Shown here in pieces: positions 11,492-39,375 of a DNA stretch of 64,000 nucleotides (the first letter of the stretch is position 1; every line of letters begins with the position of its first letter). A model generated the notes under the pieces. That model was not told where the DNA came from, searched no databases, and saw only the letters and a list, made by a program, of their open reading frames with translations. The stretch comes from an uncultured Methylococcaceae bacterium (GTDB lineage: Bacteria > Pseudomonadota > Gammaproteobacteria > Methylococcales > Methylomonadaceae): contig CAIXAE010000013.1 of the NCBI GenBank assembly GCA_903917345.1, positions 1 to 64,000 on the forward strand. Direction: 5' to 3'. The translations under genes were made by a program, and so were the position numbers.

Positions 11492-12040
11492 CTAAATCTT
11501 ACCATCCAGTCCCATCTGGAAATATTTATGGGTGATCTTATCCTGGTTTTCCAATAGCCAATCGATATCAGGTTGGTTATTCATGGCTTTTTTGATAGCG
11601 GTTGCCATCGCTTTACGGTGAATATCGAACAGGATTTGATGATCCAAGGCATCGTCGGTCGCTACACTGGGATTCAGCCATACCGAAACAATAATGCCTA
11701 AATCGTTGGCTTTGTCTTTGGGGATATCACCCGCACGTACAGCATCCAATACGCCATTGGCAATGGCTGCCTGTACTGTGCCCATTAATATATTAGTGTA
11801 ACGGGTATTTTTGACGGTAACTTTACTGACCATCAACGTCACAGGTCTTACTTGGATATCCGTATTCAAAATGGCAAATACGCGGGTATGGCCTTGGACT
11901 TGTCCGGCGGTCATACTGGCAATCGCTGTGCCGACAGGTCCGTCTAGTTCACCGATAATGACTTCCGGTTCCGCCGCTGTACCTGGAGGTCCGCCAGCGA
12001 CTAAAGCTTCGCCGGTGCGCATGATGATTCTTTCGCTCAT
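11492..12040 (-). CDS. Formaldehyde-activating enzyme (Fae) homologue
   Basis: 182 aa, whole-length Fae fold. Recognisable blocks are TGEALVAGG at the N-terminus, LMVSKVTVKN about residues 69-78, GTVQAAIANGVLDAV about 87-101 and VSVWLNP about 119-125. Fae condenses formaldehyde with tetrahydromethanopterin in C1 oxidation. In the Methylorubrum enzyme a histidine in HIDLIIG is proposed as catalytic; here the aligned stretch reads EPEVIIG, so this histidine is replaced. It is therefore more likely one of the Fae paralogues of unsettled function than the main enzyme. The ribosome site AGAGG lies 8 nt before ATG. It sits inside the tRNA-bounded accessory region. Confidence 0.85.
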   Translation of the reverse strand: MSERIIMRTGEALVAGGPPGTAAEPEVIIGELDGPVGTAIASMTAGQVQGHTRVFAILNTDIQVRPVTLMVSKVTVKNTRYTNILMGTVQAAIANGVLDAVRAGDIPKDKANDLGIIVSVWLNPSVATDDALDHQILFDIHRKAMATAIKKAMNNQPDIDWLLENQDKITHKYFQMGLDGKI

Positions 12041-12438
12041 TGTTTATTCCTCTTTTACGTAAAAGTGATTAGGATGGTAGATGTTACTGCTCAGGTAGCA
12101 TAACATTAGTTGATTAGGTAGATTACAGAAGCCTTCGAATCAGCAGTACCTCTTGACGCAAACTGAGTGACAATGAAGAACATCCGTTTCCGAAACTACG
12201 GTTTTCTTTGTAAGCTTAGTTAATACTAAGCGACATATTTTTACATGGCAGGTAATCAAGCGGCTAACTAGGCTACTTGTAAATTAAACGGAAACCTCAT
12301 TTTTTGTCATTAAAGTGAGGTTTTTTTTATGTCTCTTAAAGTTTAATTGTTAATATAAGACAAAAGCAATTGTTGTAACTATTTAATGTTATGAGCTGTT
12401 TTCAGCGTAATGTATTTTTTACTAATCGGGAATAAGTA
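12041..12438. other. Intergenic stretch with fae promoter region and a terminator hairpin
   Basis: No gene is supported. The 5' side holds the upstream region of the fae homologue. A hairpin at 12294-12330 (AAACCTCA...TGAGGTTTTTTTT) with the flank TTTTATGTCT terminates plus-strand transcription; no plus-strand gene is recognised just before it, so it may end an unknown small RNA or be a leftover. Confidence 0.5.
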
Positions 12439-12894
12439 ATGCAGATTTTGGTTGATGCCGACGCCTGTCCAAAAGCAATAAAAGACATTTTATTTCGGGT
12501 ATCAGAGCGGTTAAGTTTAACTACGACTCTAGTGGCCAATCATCCATTACAAATCCCTCCATCCCGTTATATCAAGTTTTTACAGGTAAAATCTGGGTTT
12601 GATGTAGCTGACAATGAGATTGTCAAAAGATTAGAAGTTGGGGATCTAGTGATTACTAGTGACATTCCGCTAGCCTATGAAGCTCTATCTGCCGGTGGCC
12701 ATGCAATCAATCCACGCGGTGAGCTTTATACACAAGACAATATTAGTGATCGTTTGAATATGCGCGACTTGATGGATACGTTGCGTTCTAGCGGCATTGA
12801 TACTGGGGGACCTGCTGCATTAAGTTCACGTGACGTTCAATGTTTTGCTAATCAGTTGGATAAATTCTTGATGAAACACAACTGTAATAAATAG
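12439..12894 (+). CDS. YaiI/YqxD family protein (UPF0178, DUF188)
   Basis: 151 aa, the family's normal length. Motifs are VDADACPK at residues 5-12, [13 protein letters not shown] about 50-62, VITSDIPLA about 71-79, NPRGELYT about 91-98 and [11 protein letters not shown] about 122-132. The fold is PIN-related and the acidic residues suggest a nuclease, but no biochemical role is established. It lies alone between the fae region and a degraded tRNA-Asn end. Confidence 0.92.
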
Positions 12895-12903
12895 TGAGTC
12901 ACT

Positions 12904-12960
12904 CCCGTCCGGGGGGGCAAATATAAGAAGCCTTATATGGAAATATGTAGGGCTTTTTTT
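12904..12960 (+). pseudogene. Degraded displaced tRNA-Asn 3' end with terminator
   Basis: CCCGTCCGGGGG followed by CAAATATAAGAAGCCTT matches the tRNA-Asn 3' end and flank, with lost bases in the acceptor strand. The terminator hairpin (AAGCCTTATAT...ATGTAGGGCTT with T-run) is kept. Confidence 0.82.
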
Positions 12961-13002
12961 ATGGCTGAAGTTAAGCCCTAATTTCATTAGGGTGTAATAG
13001 TT

Positions 13003-13338
13003 AGACCTCGTGGTTCAGACCCTGTACCTGCAGGTCCAATACTTCGACCTCGTGGTACAGACCCTATACCCGCTAGTCCAATGCCTAGACCTCGTGGTAG
13101 AGCCCCTATACCTGCAAGTCCAATACCTAGACCTTGTGGTACAGCCCCTATACCTGCAAGTACAATGCCTAGACCTCGTGGTACAGACCTTATACCTGCA
13201 AGTCCAATGCCTAGACCTCGTGGTACAGCCCCTATACCTGCAAGTCCAATGCCTAGACCCCGTGGTACAGACCCTGTACCTGCAGGTCCAATACTTCGAC
13301 CTCGTGGTACAGACTCTATACCAGCAGGTACGGGGTAT
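13003..13338. repeat. 42-bp tandem repeat, eight units
   Basis: Eight consecutive 42-nt units start at 13003, 13045, 13087, 13129, 13171, 13213, 13255 and 13297, the last one degraded at its 3' end. Typical core: AGACCTCGTGGTACAG then CCTATACCTGCAAGTCC. Because 42 is divisible by three and the unit lacks stops in several frames, both strands show long open frames; one encodes a proline-rich 14-residue repeat (PRPRGTDPIPASPM). None has a convincing ribosome site, and the proline frame is closed upstream by stops at 12979 and 12988. Richer in G and C than its surroundings. Coding status undecided. Confidence 0.88.
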
Positions 13339-30349: not shown

Positions 30350-30399
30350 ATATTTCTGAAGCTAGAATATCTTAACTGAAAAATAGTGGAGATATGTTT

Positions 30400-31884
30400 A
30401 TGAAACATCATAAATTTTTAAGAAAAACTCTAGTCATCATAATGACAAGTGCAGTTAGTTTTTCTGCGAGTGCTTTGGATAAGCCCCAATCCATGGAAGA
30501 TATGTGGAAAATAATTCAAGCGCAACAAAAGCAACTTAATGAGATGCAAGTGCGATTAGAAAAGGCAGAAAGTAAGTCAGTAGCCCTAAGTGCTCAAAAT
30601 TTAGACAGTAAACCTTCTTCTAACCTTTCAAGTAATACGCCAAGTTCTGAGCCACAAGTGGCAAATAATCAGGTGAAAAAATTAGAACGTAAAACGGATG
30701 TTCTAAGTCAAGAGGTTGAGAAGCTCAGGACTAACCTAGCGATTCCAGAAGAGAAGCAGCTTAAAAGTGCTTATGGCTTGGGTCCTGCGGCATCTAAGGT
30801 TTATCAGGTAGGTAAAGGGTTGTCTATTGGTGGATACGGTGAGGGCTTTTATCAAGATATTGTAGGCGACAAAGGCGCAGAAAAATCGAAAGCGGATATG
30901 GAGCGTATGGTGATGTATGTTGGTTATAAATTTACCGATAGCATCATTATGAATAGTGAACTTGAGTTTGAGCACGGCACTACTGGTGAGGGTGCTGAGT
31001 CCAAAGGTGAGGTATCTGCAGAATTTGTTTCGCTAGATTTTTTATTAAATCCTAAAGTGAATGTCCGTACCGGTTTGCTATTAATGCCGATGGGTATGAT
31101 TAATAGAATGCATGAGCCTTTATTTTATTTTGGTAATCATCGACCTGTGGTCGAGCAAACAATCATTCCAAGTACTTGGCGGGAAATGGGTGTGGGTCTA
31201 TTTGGCGCTATAACACCAAACCTAACATATACGACTTATGTGGTTAATGGTTTGAATGCGAGTGGTTTTAGTTCTACAGGTATTCGTGAGGGGACAGGGG
31301 GGGGGAGTCAAGCTTTAGCACAAGATTTGGGGTATGTGGCTCGAGTCGATTATACGCCTGATGCGTTACCTGGCTTAACCATTGGTGGTTCAGGTTACGT
31401 AAGTAATACAGGTCAAAGTTTATCTTATAATGGACAAAAAGCTGATGTATTGACTCAAATATATGAGTCTCACTTGCAATGGAAATATTATGGTTTAGAG
31501 TTTAGAGCCTTAGGATCGTGGGGGCTTATAAATAATGCGGACTTACTGTCTGCTCAAAATGTTTCCGTTATTAATGGTCAGGGTGTTGTAGGATCTCAAA
31601 ATTATGGTTGGTACACTGAAGCAGGTTATGATGTTTTACCGCTTATGTTTAGGGATACTCCCCAATATTTAGCGCCTTTTGTACGATATGAAAAATTAAA
31701 TACAATAGCCAAAGCGCCACTGGGTTATAGTTCTGATCCGACTAAAGATCAGCAAGTCTTTCAGGTGGGGTTGCAGTACAAGCCAATACCGCAAGTGGTT
31801 CTTAAGGCTGATTATAGAAACTTTGTGGCAAAACAGGGCAGTTTGCCAGATGATTTTAATTTAGGGTTTGGCTTTATTTTTTAA
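30400..31884 (+). CDS. Outer-membrane porin-like protein with N-terminal coiled coil
   Basis: 494 aa from ATG 30400 (GGAG 8 nt before); ATG 30394 is possible. Signal peptide to SASA, then a coiled-coil stretch (MWKIIQAQQKQLNEMQVRLEKAE), a Ser/Asn linker, a second heptad region and a beta-barrel ending in LPDDFNLGFGFIF with terminal Phe. The segment GYGEGFYQDIVGDKG and the repeated strand patterns fit trimeric porin-like channels. Probably Fur-controlled; first gene of an operon with the FMN-binding and membrane proteins, which suggests iron or electron-transfer work at the cell surface. Confidence 0.78.
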   Translation: MKHHKFLRKTLVIIMTSAVSFSASALDKPQSMEDMWKIIQAQQKQLNEMQVRLEKAESKSVALSAQNLDSKPSSNLSSNTPSSEPQVANNQVKKLERKTDVLSQEVEKLRTNLAIPEEKQLKSAYGLGPAASKVYQVGKGLSIGGYGEGFYQDIVGDKGAEKSKADMERMVMYVGYKFTDSIIMNSELEFEHGTTGEGAESKGEVSAEFVSLDFLLNPKVNVRTGLLLMPMGMINRMHEPLFYFGNHRPVVEQTIIPSTWREMGVGLFGAITPNLTYTTYVVNGLNASGFSSTGIREGTGGGSQALAQDLGYVARVDYTPDALPGLTIGGSGYVSNTGQSLSYNGQKADVLTQIYESHLQWKYYGLEFRALGSWGLINNADLLSAQNVSVINGQGVVGSQNYGWYTEAGYDVLPLMFRDTPQYLAPFVRYEKLNTIAKAPLGYSSDPTKDQQVFQVGLQYKPIPQVVLKADYRNFVAKQGSLPDDFNLGFGFIF

Positions 31885-31912
31885 GATGACAACACGTTTA
31901 CGGAAATACACG

Positions 31913-32455
31913 ATGAAATTACTTAAGCTGATGGTATTAAGCTTATCAATATTAATAGGTACTCCCTGTTTTGCGACTATTTATTACAGCAAAAGTGAAG
32001 CAATGGAATTGGCCTTTGGCGCAGGGGCTACTATTGAGTCGTTGTCTTTATTTCCGGATGAATTTCAAGTTACAAAAATAGAACAAGAAGCTAAGATAAA
32101 ATTAGAATCGGGTTTATTCACTTTTTATGTAGGTAAAAATAAAGATAAAATAGTGGGTTACGGAGCAATAGAAACTAGTACAGTAAGAACTAAGCCAGAA
32201 ACATTGATGATTGTATTATCGCCAGAAGGAGAATTACGTAATGTTTATACATTGGCCTTTCATGAACCTATTGAATATGAACCACCCCAAGCTTGGTATG
32301 AAAAGCTTTATAACAAATCGCTAGCAAACATGGACTTTAATAAAGGCGTAGATGGTATTAGCGGTGCGACTTTGAGTACACGGACGGCGCTTGCTAGCAT
32401 TCGTAAAGTGATGATGATTTACCAAATTATGATAAAAAATAAGGATGCTGAATAA
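31913..32455 (+). CDS. Periplasmic FMN-binding (flavinylation) domain protein
   Basis: About 180 aa with a signal peptide (KLMVLSLSILIGTPCFA). The C-terminal half is an FMN_bind domain: DGISGATLSTR contains the S-G-A-T sequence whose Thr receives FMN covalently through ApbE in RnfG, NqrC and extracellular-electron-transfer proteins. ATG 31886 is an alternative start; the longest frame overlaps the porin gene. Its stop overlaps the next start (TAATG). Likely a periplasmic one- or two-electron carrier between the membrane protein downstream and a terminal acceptor such as ferric iron. Confidence 0.8.
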   Translation: MKLLKLMVLSLSILIGTPCFATIYYSKSEAMELAFGAGATIESLSLFPDEFQVTKIEQEAKIKLESGLFTFYVGKNKDKIVGYGAIETSTVRTKPETLMIVLSPEGELRNVYTLAFHEPIEYEPPQAWYEKLYNKSLANMDFNKGVDGISGATLSTRTALASIRKVMMIYQIMIKNKDAE

Positions 32456-32949
32456 TGCGTTATTTTGTGACAGGCGAACAGCAGCGTAAAGCGCTACTTA
32501 ATGCATTAGTGTTGATGTTTTTGGGATATATTGCTTTGTTATGGTTGAGCAATGCGTTGATGTACTTTCATCATATGGCTTTAACACCTAGCTCTGTTAT
32601 CGCCTATTATTTGGGTTCAGAAGAGCAGTTTACTCAGCCTAGAAGTTATCAGGGTATGTTAGAAGTTTCTCACTTTCATCTGTTTTCTATGGGAATGTTA
32701 ATAGTAACGCTAACCCATTTAATGCTGATGACTGATTTTTCAGTACGTTTGAAAATTTGGTTGAGTGCATTAACATATGTTTCAGCGCTTGCTGACGAAG
32801 CGGGTGGTTGGCTAGTGCGATTTGTAAATCCCTTGTTTGCCTATTTTAAAATTGCGGCATTTATTACGTTAGAGTTTTCTTTAGCGACCCTAATCGTTGT
32901 GGTTATATGGGCGTTGTTAAAAGCTAGGACACAAATAGTAGCATCGTAG
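32455..32949 (+). CDS. Four-helix membrane protein of the FMN-binding operon
   Basis: 164 aa with four hydrophobic helices (LVLMFLGYIALLWL; HLFSMGMLIVTLTHLML; IWLSALTYVSALA; AAFITLEFSLATLIVVVIW). Histidines cluster at the membrane edge (MYFHHM, VSHFHLFSMG, LTHLM), compatible with b-haem ligation, but no named family is recognised. Translational coupling to the FMN_bind gene suggests it supplies electrons from the quinone pool. Not proven. Confidence 0.7.
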   Translation: MRYFVTGEQQRKALLNALVLMFLGYIALLWLSNALMYFHHMALTPSSVIAYYLGSEEQFTQPRSYQGMLEVSHFHLFSMGMLIVTLTHLMLMTDFSVRLKIWLSALTYVSALADEAGGWLVRFVNPLFAYFKIAAFITLEFSLATLIVVVIWALLKARTQIVAS

Positions 32950-35745: not shown

Positions 35746-38700
35746 ATGATTATTATTGACTCAAAAATACGCCGTTTTTTGCATGTCCTTATTTTAATTT
35801 TTAGTGTTATTGGGCTGCTGTGCTTCTCGGAACTTTGTTTAGCGCATGAGCGATGGATTCTGACACCTGAACAAATTAATCACTGGAATGGTCAATTGCG
35901 TCCAGAGCTTTTTTCTCAGTTTTCTGCGCTTAATGTTTCAATGATTTCGGTATTTTCAATTTTCATTGTAGGATGGGTTTGGCTCGGATTTACGGGAGCC
36001 CGTGAATTATTCCCTGATTTACAAGCTAGATTATCTTCTTATGGCGATCATGTTCCGCGTATTTTAAGAGTTTGTGTTGCTTGGATTTTATTATCTTCTG
36101 CTTTGGGTGCTGAGCCACGATTTGGTGTGGCTGTTTTTACGACACCTACTTTTTTTGCACCTGATCTTGATTTAAATCAGTTGGGTCCAGAATGGGCTTG
36201 GTTACGTTGGGCTGAAGTCGTTTTGGGCATTACGATTTTATTTGGCATTTATGTACGCTTATTTGCCAGTTTATTAATTTTATTAAGTCTGTTGGGTTTT
36301 TATCTTTATGGTGAGGCTATATTTGCTTATGCTGGCGCTATTATTGGCGCTGGTATTTATTTAGTTCTACAAGGATCTGGTAGACATTATTTGCCTTTAC
36401 CCATTCTAGCTCCTTTTCAAGGAATGCAAACTTGGCTTTCGGAGCAACCGCGTCAGCGTGCGCAAGCTATTATGCGAATTTTGACAGGAACCACTTTGTT
36501 GTATTTAGGTGTATTTTTTAAAGTGATGCAGCCTAATCTTTCAATTGGCATTATTACGCACTATCAATTACCCATATTGTCGGTGCATCCAGAGGCTTTT
36601 ACTTTAGTGATGGCTTTAGTTGAGGTGAGCGCTGGTATTTTGATGATTGCAGGTGTTTTATTAAGACCTTTGTCATTGTTTTTGATTTCAGCATTTTCTA
36701 TTTTTGCAATGCTGTTACCAGAAACGGTAACCGAACACATTCTTTTTTATGGTGTGGTTTTATCTTGTCTTATTAATTCTGCCGGACATTTGCGACGACC
36801 AATCGCTAGAGATAAAGCGGCAAATATAGTCATTCTTGGTGGTGGGCTTTCAGCTCTGCAAGCGGCTATAAAAATTGAGAGGCTTATTGGTCAATACTCT
36901 AATGTTAAGATTACTTTATTACATGATCAGGCAAATTTTTTATTTACCCCTTTTTTGCCAGAGGTCATTGGTGGTACTGTTCAACCGGGTAATGTGGTAA
37001 ACCCTTTTAGACGTATCATTCAACAAACGAATGTTGTAGTCGGTCATTTTGATTCTATCGATGAGAAAGCTCAGAAGGTTATAGCAAAACGAAAAAACAA
37101 CGATATTATTGAGCTTCCTTATGATAGTTTGATTGTAGCACTCAGTCCTAAATCTAATATGGCTAGCATTTCAGGCATGATGGCTCATGCGTGTATGATT
37201 GATTCAGTAGCTGATGCTCTTCGTATAAGGCAACATGTATTAGATTTAGTTGAAGAAGCCGAGTTTGCAGATGATCAATTTGAGAGAATTCGTCTTCTTA
37301 CTTTCGCTGTGATAGGTTTTGGTGAACAAGCCTCTGCGATAGCGGTAGAAGTGAGTCAGATACTTCGGGCTGCAGAGTCTTCTTATTCGGTATTAAGAGA
37401 TTCTGGGTGGCAGGTGCATCTGTTTGAAGAGCAAGCTCAAAGTTGGTCTGAATTTGAGAAGAAGATTACACCTAAACGTGCTCGTAATCTAAAAAAAGCG
37501 GGGGTTATCGAACATTTGCATGATGAGGTTACTAGTGTGACTCAAAGAGATTTATTTTTCTCTAATGGTCAAAGTCAGCCAGTGGGACTTGTCATTAATG
37601 CTACGAAGAAAATACCGAGTATTACTTTTAAGGGGTATGGGGAGTTAAATTGGCCATTTGCAATGAGTGATGAGTTAAGTTTAAAGGGATTTGAAAATAT
37701 TTGGATTACAAAGAATAACTATAATCCGCTTTACCCTCAATTTATTTTCACGAATGACTTGGTTGATTTAGGATATACCGCTGGTTTTAATGCTTGGGCG
37801 AGTTCACAAGGTTTCAAAACTAGACCTTTTAAGAAAAGAACACATTTAATTCAACCATATAACATGGCGGAATACTCACTATGTCGTTTGGGTTGGTTTA
37901 TGATCGGTGGAAAGCCGGCATGGTTTGTTTCACGTTTGATTAATATGTTTTCTGTACCGGGTTTGGAGAGAAATTTAAGAATTATTATTGATTGGTTTTT
38001 AGTACTTGCGTTCCGTAATGACATTGCTGTTTTAGCCCAAGCAGCATCTGCGCATTTACAGAGGTCGCATTTTAAAGCAGGAGATAATGTTTTTTGTGCT
38101 GGTGATGCTGCTCTGATGGCCTATGCTGTTGATTCAGGGCAATTGAAAGTACTTCAAGAGGGACGTATAGTTAGAGAGTTAGGGCCGGGTGATTATTTTG
38201 GTGAAATTTTGCCTATGCATAATAATCGTCGTGTAGAAACAGTGCGTTGTATGACGGACTGTGAGTTAAAGATTGTGTCTCAAGAAGATCTTAATGCATT
38301 AATTAAGAGCGGTTGGTTAATGAGTAAAGCGGTCCGAAATTTAAGACATTATCAATCGGAAGTTAATCGACCTGAGTTTTCATTAGGTTTAAAAAGATTA
38401 ACCTATGTAAGTAAAGTAAATGCAGTGTTAGATGAAGAAGAAATTATTGAGATTGGACGTATTTCCAGCGTAAATAATAAAAAAAGAGATGTGACAGGTG
38501 TACTTATTTCAGTGAAGGATTATTTCTTTCAGGTTCTAGAAGGTGAAGAGTCTACAGTTGATGCTTTAGTGGAAAAAATTGGTCGAGATCCTCGTCATAA
38601 TGAAATAACTATCTTAAGTTCAGAAATCGGTTGTGAAGAGCGACTTTTTACCGATTGGGGTATGAAAACTGTAGCTCTGAGTGAAAGCAATGATCTTATG

Positions 38701-39375
38701 TTATTGGCCATTGGGATGATGTTGCAAAATATAGCGCAATCCTATAGTACTGTGGGCCGTTATACTCAGCCCGTATTACTTAAATATTTAATGGAAGGCA
38801 TAAATCCTTTAACTATTCCCATTAAAAGTTCAGAAAAAATTGTTGTATCTGGGAGTATGACTGATTTTTCAGCATTATCTCAACAATTCACTCTGGAGGA
38901 AGTCATTAACGTTTTGAATAGTTATTTGGAAATATGTTCGACATCATTTATTGAACATGGTGGCCAAGTGGCAAAATACTCGAATGGATGCGTTATTGCT
39001 CATTTTTTGCCAGATCAAGTAGATATGGCAATTGCTGCTTGTGTTGACACTTTTAGAAAAATTAAGTCTTTAAATAAAAATAGCCCTATCTACGATGCTA
39101 TCACTTTTGGGTTTGGGTTAGCCTCTGCTACTATGATTGAAGGTAATATAGGTTCGTCTATAAAAATGGATTATACCGTTTTAGGTGAAGCTGTTGATCA
39201 GGCGGTAAATTTAGGCTTACTTGCTAGAGATTTAAAAATGCCTATTGCAATTAGTCAATCTATTCAAATTCTGGCTGATAAATCTTGGAATTTTCAAGAG
39301 GTTGGGCCTATTTATTTTAAGCATAGTAATGATTCTACTAAAATTTATGCGCTTGCAAGTGTGAGTGGAAGTTGA
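35746..39375 (+). CDS. DoxX-like membrane / NDH-2-like / cNMP-binding / BLUF / cyclase-homology multidomain protein
   Basis: 1209 aa. Residues 1-350: signal-like segment and about eight membrane helices, DoxX-like (AEPRFGVAVF, GVFFKVMQPN). 360-750: type II NADH-dehydrogenase-like FAD/NAD fold (NIVILGGGLSAL at 360-371; FTPFLPEVIGG at 400-410; VIGFGEQASA at 522-531). 758-870: cyclic-nucleotide-binding domain (FGE 818-820 and RRVETV 828-833 form a phosphate cassette). 882-978: BLUF flavin photosensor with Tyr887, Asn910/911, Gln929 and Trp971-Met973 at the spacing of AppA and Slr1694. 1030-1205: class III cyclase homology domain. In the cyclase part the two metal Asp are Ser1037 and Gly1081, and the transition-state Asn and Arg are Asp1151 and Asn1155, so it is probably catalytically dead. 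The FAD-binding GD motif of NDH-2 is also not found near residue 654. Likely a light- and redox-responsive membrane sensor rather than an enzyme; this is inference. Confidence 0.85.
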   Translation: MIIIDSKIRRFLHVLILIFSVIGLLCFSELCLAHERWILTPEQINHWNGQLRPELFSQFSALNVSMISVFSIFIVGWVWLGFTGARELFPDLQARLSSYGDHVPRILRVCVAWILLSSALGAEPRFGVAVFTTPTFFAPDLDLNQLGPEWAWLRWAEVVLGITILFGIYVRLFASLLILLSLLGFYLYGEAIFAYAGAIIGAGIYLVLQGSGRHYLPLPILAPFQGMQTWLSEQPRQRAQAIMRILTGTTLLYLGVFFKVMQPNLSIGIITHYQLPILSVHPEAFTLVMALVEVSAGILMIAGVLLRPLSLFLISAFSIFAMLLPETVTEHILFYGVVLSCLINSAGHLRRPIARDKAANIVILGGGLSALQAAIKIERLIGQYSNVKITLLHDQANFLFTPFLPEVIGGTVQPGNVVNPFRRIIQQTNVVVGHFDSIDEKAQKVIAKRKNNDIIELPYDSLIVALSPKSNMASISGMMAHACMIDSVADALRIRQHVLDLVEEAEFADDQFERIRLLTFAVIGFGEQASAIAVEVSQILRAAESSYSVLRDSGWQVHLFEEQAQSWSEFEKKITPKRARNLKKAGVIEHLHDEVTSVTQRDLFFSNGQSQPVGLVINATKKIPSITFKGYGELNWPFAMSDELSLKGFENIWITKNNYNPLYPQFIFTNDLVDLGYTAGFNAWASSQGFKTRPFKKRTHLIQPYNMAEYSLCRLGWFMIGGKPAWFVSRLINMFSVPGLERNLRIIIDWFLVLAFRNDIAVLAQAASAHLQRSHFKAGDNVFCAGDAALMAYAVDSGQLKVLQEGRIVRELGPGDYFGEILPMHNNRRVETVRCMTDCELKIVSQEDLNALIKSGWLMSKAVRNLRHYQSEVNRPEFSLGLKRLTYVSKVNAVLDEEEIIEIGRISSVNNKKRDVTGVLISVKDYFFQVLEGEESTVDALVEKIGRDPRHNEITILSSEIGCEERLFTDWGMKTVALSESNDLMLLAIGMMLQNIAQSYSTVGRYTQPVLLKYLMEGINPLTIPIKSSEKIVVSGSMTDFSALSQQFTLEEVINVLNSYLEICSTSFIEHGGQVAKYSNGCVIAHFLPDQVDMAIAACVDTFRKIKSLNKNSPIYDAITFGFGLASATMIEGNIGSSIKMDYTVLGEAVDQAVNLGLLARDLKMPIAISQSIQILADKSWNFQEVGPIYFKHSNDSTKIYALASVSGS

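Follow-up and report, generated by a model that had tools for sequence, protein, structure and literature searches.

A single-chain BLUF protein of Methylococcales as a putative cAMP-independent blue-light receptor descended from a two-gene circuit

The stretch of DNA analysed here (the window) comprises positions 1 to 64,000 of contig CAIXAE010000013.1 (assembly GCA_903917345.1) from an uncultured Methylococcaceae bacterium. Positions 35746-39375 of its forward strand hold an uninterrupted open reading frame (ORF) that starts with ATG and encodes 1209 amino acids plus a stop codon. From the N- to the C-terminus, the single chain consists of a tandem DoxX membrane part, a domain resembling type II NADH dehydrogenases (NDH-2-like), a cyclic-nucleotide-binding (cNMP) domain, a BLUF photosensor, and a cyclase homology domain of the type found in photoactivated adenylyl cyclases (PACs) (Table 1). 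Judging from sequence comparison, we consider it probable (about 0.58) that this fused protein is a membrane blue-light receptor independent of cyclic AMP (cAMP), descended from a two-gene light-to-cAMP circuit and acting on a membrane redox module.

The five-part composition had been proposed in an initial annotation of the window and was confirmed by Pfam searches together with alignment to known PACs. Four of the profiles scored above their cut-offs: BLUF at residues 882-974 (88.7 bits against 25), cNMP_binding at 775-854 (58.0 against 27.5), Pyr_redox_2 at 360-620 (65.7 against 26.1) and DoxX in two stretches, the better of them at 241-321 (25.0 against 23.6, and 32.2 bits when the membrane part was scanned by itself). 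The fifth, Guanylate_cyc, failed to match the window protein's cyclase domain. The BLUF score rules out a chance match, and the domain was found where it had been placed (880-978). The putative DoxX duplication rests on the two Pfam stretches; comparing the halves with each other by blastp gave no significant match (E 14). By a hydropathy count, which is a crude method, residues 34-350 contain no more than five strong membrane segments, and a further one lies at 14-32.

All of the BLUF residues singled out by the initial annotation (Tyr887, Asn910, Asn911, Gln929, Trp971 and Met973) are present in the window protein and invariant across all 30 distinct full-length fused sequences. This set of 30, from which seven partial sequences (L031, L015, L048, L017, L018, L077 and L035) were dropped, underlies the residue counts given below for fused proteins, which are counts of sequences and not of independent events. 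The spacing between the tyrosine and the glutamine is 42 residues (929 minus 887), as claimed, and is one that we take AppA and Slr1694 to share. No other BLUF match occurs in the genome of the window (99.8% complete). The prediction that the fused protein is a membrane protein reading blue light is well supported, and the light-sensing part of the initial annotation stands.

Residues 879-1203 align over their full length with OaPAC (E 2.1e-75), and also with bPAC-type PACs (E about 7e-65). Four residues have catalytic roles in class III cyclases: two metal-binding aspartates (Asp1 and Asp2) and an asparagine and an arginine that form the transition-state pair. These correspond to Asp156, Asp200, Asn273 and Arg277 of OaPAC, numbered as in the typed construct. 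In 16 stand-alone PACs from related genomes they are retained in 16 (Asp1), 15 (Asp2), 16 (Asn) and 16 (Arg) sequences, and in the 30 fused proteins in 0, 4, 1 and 5, respectively. The window protein has lost all four, and Asp1 is also gone from the four partial fused sequences that extend to the site. Guanylate_cyc gave 52.6 bits on a separate-gene PAC and only weak matches, of 22 to 38 bits, in four fused genes (G182, G212, G214 and G132). The initial annotation had left cyclase activity open; these losses indicate that the cyclase of the fused protein very probably no longer makes cAMP. An excerpt of PMC6937261 places the active site at the interface of the cyclase dimer and describes the α3 helices of BLUF as carriers of the signal.

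The two domains between the membrane part and the photosensor have changed as well. In the cNMP pocket, relatives encoded by separate genes read FGE-(I/M/L)-AL and R-(T/N/V)-A-T in all 14 cases. The residue two places after the arginine, alanine in these 14, is glutamate in 29 of the fused sequences and aspartate in the remaining one, and the alanine after FGE-x survives in just 1 of 30; with such changes, cAMP binding may have been lost. The best Protein Data Bank matches of the NDH-2-like domain are NDH-2 structures, and the NDH-2-type C-terminal helix region aligns in the fused protein. In a single alignment holding reference, fused and separate-gene rows, the GD motif for flavin adenine dinucleotide (FAD), the (V/I)E motif of the NADH site and the AQ motif of the quinone site occur in 10 of 10 reference NDH-2s, in none of the 30 fused proteins and in none of the 14 separate-gene relatives, which read GGTVAA at the first Rossmann motif. 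The NDH-2-like domain is thus altered in both the fused and the separate forms. The initial annotation had further suggested a sensor of redox state or quinones and of cyclic nucleotide. Neither is well supported, in view of the missing motifs for the former and, for the latter, of the acidic residue in the cNMP pocket of all 30 fused sequences and the lack of class III and class I cyclase matches in the window's genome (see below).

At E 1e-60, 49 of 251 sampled Methylococcales genomes matched the protein. Reading of the match rows assigned 31 of them to the fused form (4 as contig-end pieces) and 14 to separate genes, while 2 have the stand-alone BLUF-cyclase only and 2 an N-terminal fragment only. 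Among the named relatives are Methylobacter sp. KS41 and Crenothrix sp. D3, besides other Methylococcaceae. Across genera, the frames are open over their full length, with identities of 50-80%. The occurrence of the same architecture in many independent assemblies, including the single-contig genomes G046, G115, G170 and G182, rules out an assembly fusion of separate genes.

Where the membrane, NDH-2-like and cNMP parts form a gene of their own, a stand-alone PAC is present too, in 14 of 14 genomes; at the threshold used, a stand-alone PAC without the separate membrane gene was found in just 2 further genomes of the 251. The two genes are adjacent on one strand in five of the 14; in two they lie on opposite strands with about 1.6 kb between them, and in seven on different contigs. 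In G120, they share one frame with stop codons between them. In the separate-gene genomes, the motifs of the cyclase and the pocket of the cNMP domain both look functional. Beyond Methylococcales, only pieces of the architecture, and no complete N-terminal part, were found in 369 genomes of the class and 398 of the phylum, samples that overlap somewhat and both include the window's own genome, which is excepted here. The pieces were the membrane part alone (G394, G712), NDH-2 followed by cNMP (G422, G665, G815, G793) and NDH-2 alone (G407, G503, G508). In G394, the lone DoxX-type membrane part stands beside a same-strand gene of 626 amino acids for an FAD-NAD(P)-binding protein (PF13454), at locus L103, 7539-10638. 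Spread by plasmids was considered and rejected, as the whole protein was unmatched at E 1e-50 in a plasmid collection, and no description of the architecture was found in the open-access literature searched, a limited body judged by titles and the starts of abstracts.

In trees of both the N-terminal half and the BLUF-cyclase half, one branch with 100/100 support sets the 30 fused sequences apart from the separate forms, among which OaPAC falls. One branch dividing the forms in both trees is as expected from a single fusion. The root was drawn at the midpoint; the order, first separate and then fused, is likely because the separate PACs and OaPAC have intact catalytic residues. The fused members form two subclades, of 24 and 6, and the small one mixes two families. 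The fused form is present in G132 (L079), whereas separate genes occur in five sampled genomes of the same genus, g38 (L063, L065, L067, L069 and L074); this is likely a case of horizontal transfer or replacement. The median pairwise ratio of nonsynonymous to synonymous substitution rates (dN/dS) was 0.062 for the membrane part, 0.092 for the NDH-2-like, 0.100 for the cNMP and 0.071 for the BLUF domain, and 0.163 for the pseudo-cyclase, calculated from pairs with dS of 0.02-2 (39 to 128 of 193 pairs, depending on the domain). All five domains are therefore still maintained by purifying selection, which is strictest on the membrane part and loosest on the pseudo-cyclase.

We propose the following sequence of events. 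Ancestrally, a BLUF-type PAC would have made cAMP, which was bound by a membrane protein with DoxX-DoxX, NDH-2-like and cNMP parts. After one fusion had united both genes, the metal and transition-state residues would have disappeared from the cyclase, and the cNMP pocket would have been altered. In the present protein, BLUF would sense light and a PAC-like helix bundle would move the pseudo-cyclase, whose present role may be that of a dimer or contact domain; from there, the change would pass directly through the cNMP and NDH-2-like domains to the tandem DoxX membrane part, with no diffusible messenger. In the window's subclade, the target is likely to be a membrane redox function shared with a tri-haem quinol-type peroxidase encoded next door, that is, peroxide or quinol handling under light. 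The sequences show the residue losses, the arrangement of the genes and the selection, while every functional step of this scheme is an inference. Tentatively, and at somewhat less than even odds, we suggest that the protein is a fossil second-messenger circuit, in which a light-made cAMP signal was captured in one chain and the chemistry of both sender and receiver was lost, leaving these methane oxidisers with a cAMP-free light-to-membrane switch for a quinone or peroxide function.

Several observations weigh against a cAMP-independent receptor acting on a redox module. Asp2 persists in four fused proteins and the arginine in five. At the base-recognition site of the cyclase, Thr or Ser is found in 30 of 30 fused sequences and Lys in 21, so that nucleotide binding without catalysis is possible. 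FGE and the arginine of the cNMP domain are retained in 30 of 30, and this domain could therefore still bind some nucleotide. The first Rossmann motif keeps the FAD-type GGG in 30 of 30, and GxGxx(G/A) is kept in 26. Guanylate_cyc matched outside the fused gene in 21 of 35 genomes with the fused form; cAMP may thus be present in many hosts. Peroxidase genes are absent downstream of the fused gene in the smaller subclade (0 of 6), and two AlphaFold models were both poor, with a mean predicted local distance difference test (pLDDT) score of 41.3 and 43.4. In favour of the receptor, Guanylate_cyc matched none of the genes in 12 of the 35 genomes and solely the fused gene in two (G182 and G212), but matched in every one of the 16 genomes where the genes are separate or a PAC stands alone, the PACs themselves included. 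Also in its favour, neither Guanylate_cyc (class III) nor Adenylate_cycl (class I) matched at E 0.01 in the window's genome, other cyclase classes not having been searched for. In that genome, cNMP_binding matched two proteins, the fused protein and an open frame of 250 amino acids.

The strongest rival is an NADH:quinone oxidoreductase gated by light and nucleotide, in which the NDH-2-like domain would still oxidise NAD(P)H, supplying both the quinone pool and the quinol-type peroxidase next door, under the control of BLUF and cNMP. The Pyr_redox_2 score, the conserved glycines, the aligned C-terminal helix region, the peroxidase neighbour and the strong conservation of the membrane part all agree with such an enzyme, which we nevertheless think unlikely: the GD, (V/I)E and AQ motifs are missing throughout, GxGxx(G/A) is lost in 4 of 30 fused rows, and an ordinary NDH-2 is encoded elsewhere in the genome (G000:C23). 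Rather less probable still is a cyclic-nucleotide sensor whose pseudo-cyclase has ATP or some other nucleotide as its ligand; the chain would then integrate light with nucleotide level and not with redox state. This would explain why the base-recognition residues and the stretch GNIGS..K..(Y/F)(T/S) are conserved while the catalytic residues are free to vary; yet 9 of 30 fused sequences have Glu, Asp or Arg instead of the lysine, and the pseudo-cyclase has the highest dN/dS of the five domains. An active PAC fused to its own receptor, with light-made cAMP binding to the cNMP domain of its own chain or of one next to it, is very improbable. The overall PAC homology, the base-recognition residues and the retained FGE and Arg would suit it, but it was rejected on the residues, as Asp1 is lost in every fused sequence and the other three as well in the window protein, whose cyclase domain Guanylate_cyc does not recognise as it does a separate-gene PAC. 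A decaying remnant without present function, suggested by the loss of several catalytic sites within one chain, can be dismissed in view of the full-length frames across genera, the selection on every domain, the invariant BLUF residues and the conserved downstream gene.

That downstream gene encodes an anchored tri-haem peroxidase with Haem_bd, CCP_MauG and Cytochrom_C domains, the best solved relative of which is a probable cytochrome c peroxidase (9qdt, E 9.9e-116). The gap between the two genes is 117 bases in the window, and in L030 and L089 the stop of the fused gene overlaps the peroxidase start. The peroxidase gene lies directly downstream in 20 of the 24 members of the window's subclade, or in 20 of the 22 with more than 353 bases of downstream sequence, two of the other four having just 353 or 2. 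It is likely an operon partner of the fused gene in this subclade, and not a universal one, given its absence from the other. According to an excerpt of PMC10301912, the E. coli YhjA is a trihaem enzyme whose proposed electron source is the quinol pool. At the separate-gene loci L057 and L058, a 61-64% identical peroxidase occurs nearby, on the opposite strand.

Table 1. Features of the fused gene and its neighbour, in window coordinates.
Feature	Residues	Position	Strand	Remarks
Whole fused ORF		35746..39375	+	Open frame; orthologues in other genomes
Hydrophobic N-terminus	1-33	35746..35844	+	Signal- or anchor-like (putative role); fast-evolving, median dN/dS 0.40
Membrane part	34-350	35845..36795	+	Two DoxX stretches; strictest purifying selection, median dN/dS 0.062
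NDH-2-like domain	355-760	36808..38025	+	GGG glycines present; lacks GD, (V/I)E and AQ of real NDH-2s
cNMP-binding domain	765-860	38038..38325	+	FGE and Arg829 retained; pocket altered (L822, P823, E831)
BLUF photosensor	880-980	38383..38685	+	Tyr887, Asn910/911, Gln929, Trp971, Met973
PAC-type cyclase homology domain	1005-1205	38758..39360	+	Lacks catalytic residues
First metal-binding Asp of OaPAC	Ser1037	38854..38856	+	Asp gone in 30/30 fused
Second metal-binding Asp	Gly1081	38986..38988	+	Asp retained in 4/30 fused, not in window protein
OaPAC Asn and Arg (transition-state pair)	Asp1151, Asn1155	39196..39210	+	
Tri-haem (3 CxxCH), N-terminally anchored cytochrome c peroxidase, YhjA type	459 amino acids	39493..40872	+	Likely operon partner of the fused gene

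Other neighbours were noted at individual loci. In the other fused subclade, L078 (G046) has a DNA photolyase gene (11639-13063) on the same strand, 75 bases downstream of the fused gene. In L028, where the peroxidase is missing, a short opposite-strand ORF (11617-12009) that by eye presumably resembles an insertion sequence (IS) transposase abuts the fused gene. A gene for a receiver plus metallo-beta-lactamase follows the PAC gene at five separate-gene loci (L054, L055, L056, L057 and L058), three of which also have a small gene clustering with a cytochrome c; these genes were possibly part of the ancestral circuit. In the window, three consecutive genes at 30394-32949 (+ strand) form a possible electron-transfer unit; only the middle one matches Pfam, and marginally so, with FMN_bind at 22.4 bits against a cut-off of 22.

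If a cAMP-free receptor has indeed arisen in this way, a diffusible second messenger was replaced by direct contact following a gene fusion, and the fusion step can be tested because the ancestral two-gene form is still alive in relatives. The fused protein would also be a candidate photoreceptor in methanotrophs. An excerpt of PMC12211021 names the inhibition of methane oxidation by light in lakes as an ecological factor that is still open. A BLUF-pseudo-cyclase signalling without cAMP might be of use as a part in optogenetics, and the separate-gene PACs offer new candidate tools.

Among known systems, OaPAC and bPAC align end to end with the C-terminal part of the window protein and share its BLUF residues, and transmission through the helix bundle is presumably the same. 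They differ in that the window protein lacks the four catalytic residues and carries the PAC-like part at the C-terminus of a membrane protein. The separate-gene pair (for example in L054, L055 and L057) has the same two halves, in the same order where adjacent on one strand, but as two genes with intact cyclase residues and cNMP pocket, followed by the receiver-metallo-beta-lactamase and small cytochrome c genes. The four proteobacterial NDH-2 proteins with a C-terminal cNMP domain mentioned above resemble the fused protein in the succession of these two folds, whereas they retain GD, (V/I)E and AQ and have no DoxX, BLUF or cyclase part. The likeness to YhjA concerns the neighbouring gene and not the receptor; it comprises the N-terminal anchor, three CxxCH motifs, Haem_bd and CCP_MauG, and quinol use by the window's peroxidase is putative. 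BlrP1, YcgF/BluF and AppA, whose outputs are catalytic or anti-repressor, have a BLUF input like the fused protein, but are soluble, with an EAL or SCHIC output and no membrane or NDH-2-like part; of these, YcgF provides a precedent for a BLUF protein that acts via protein contact.

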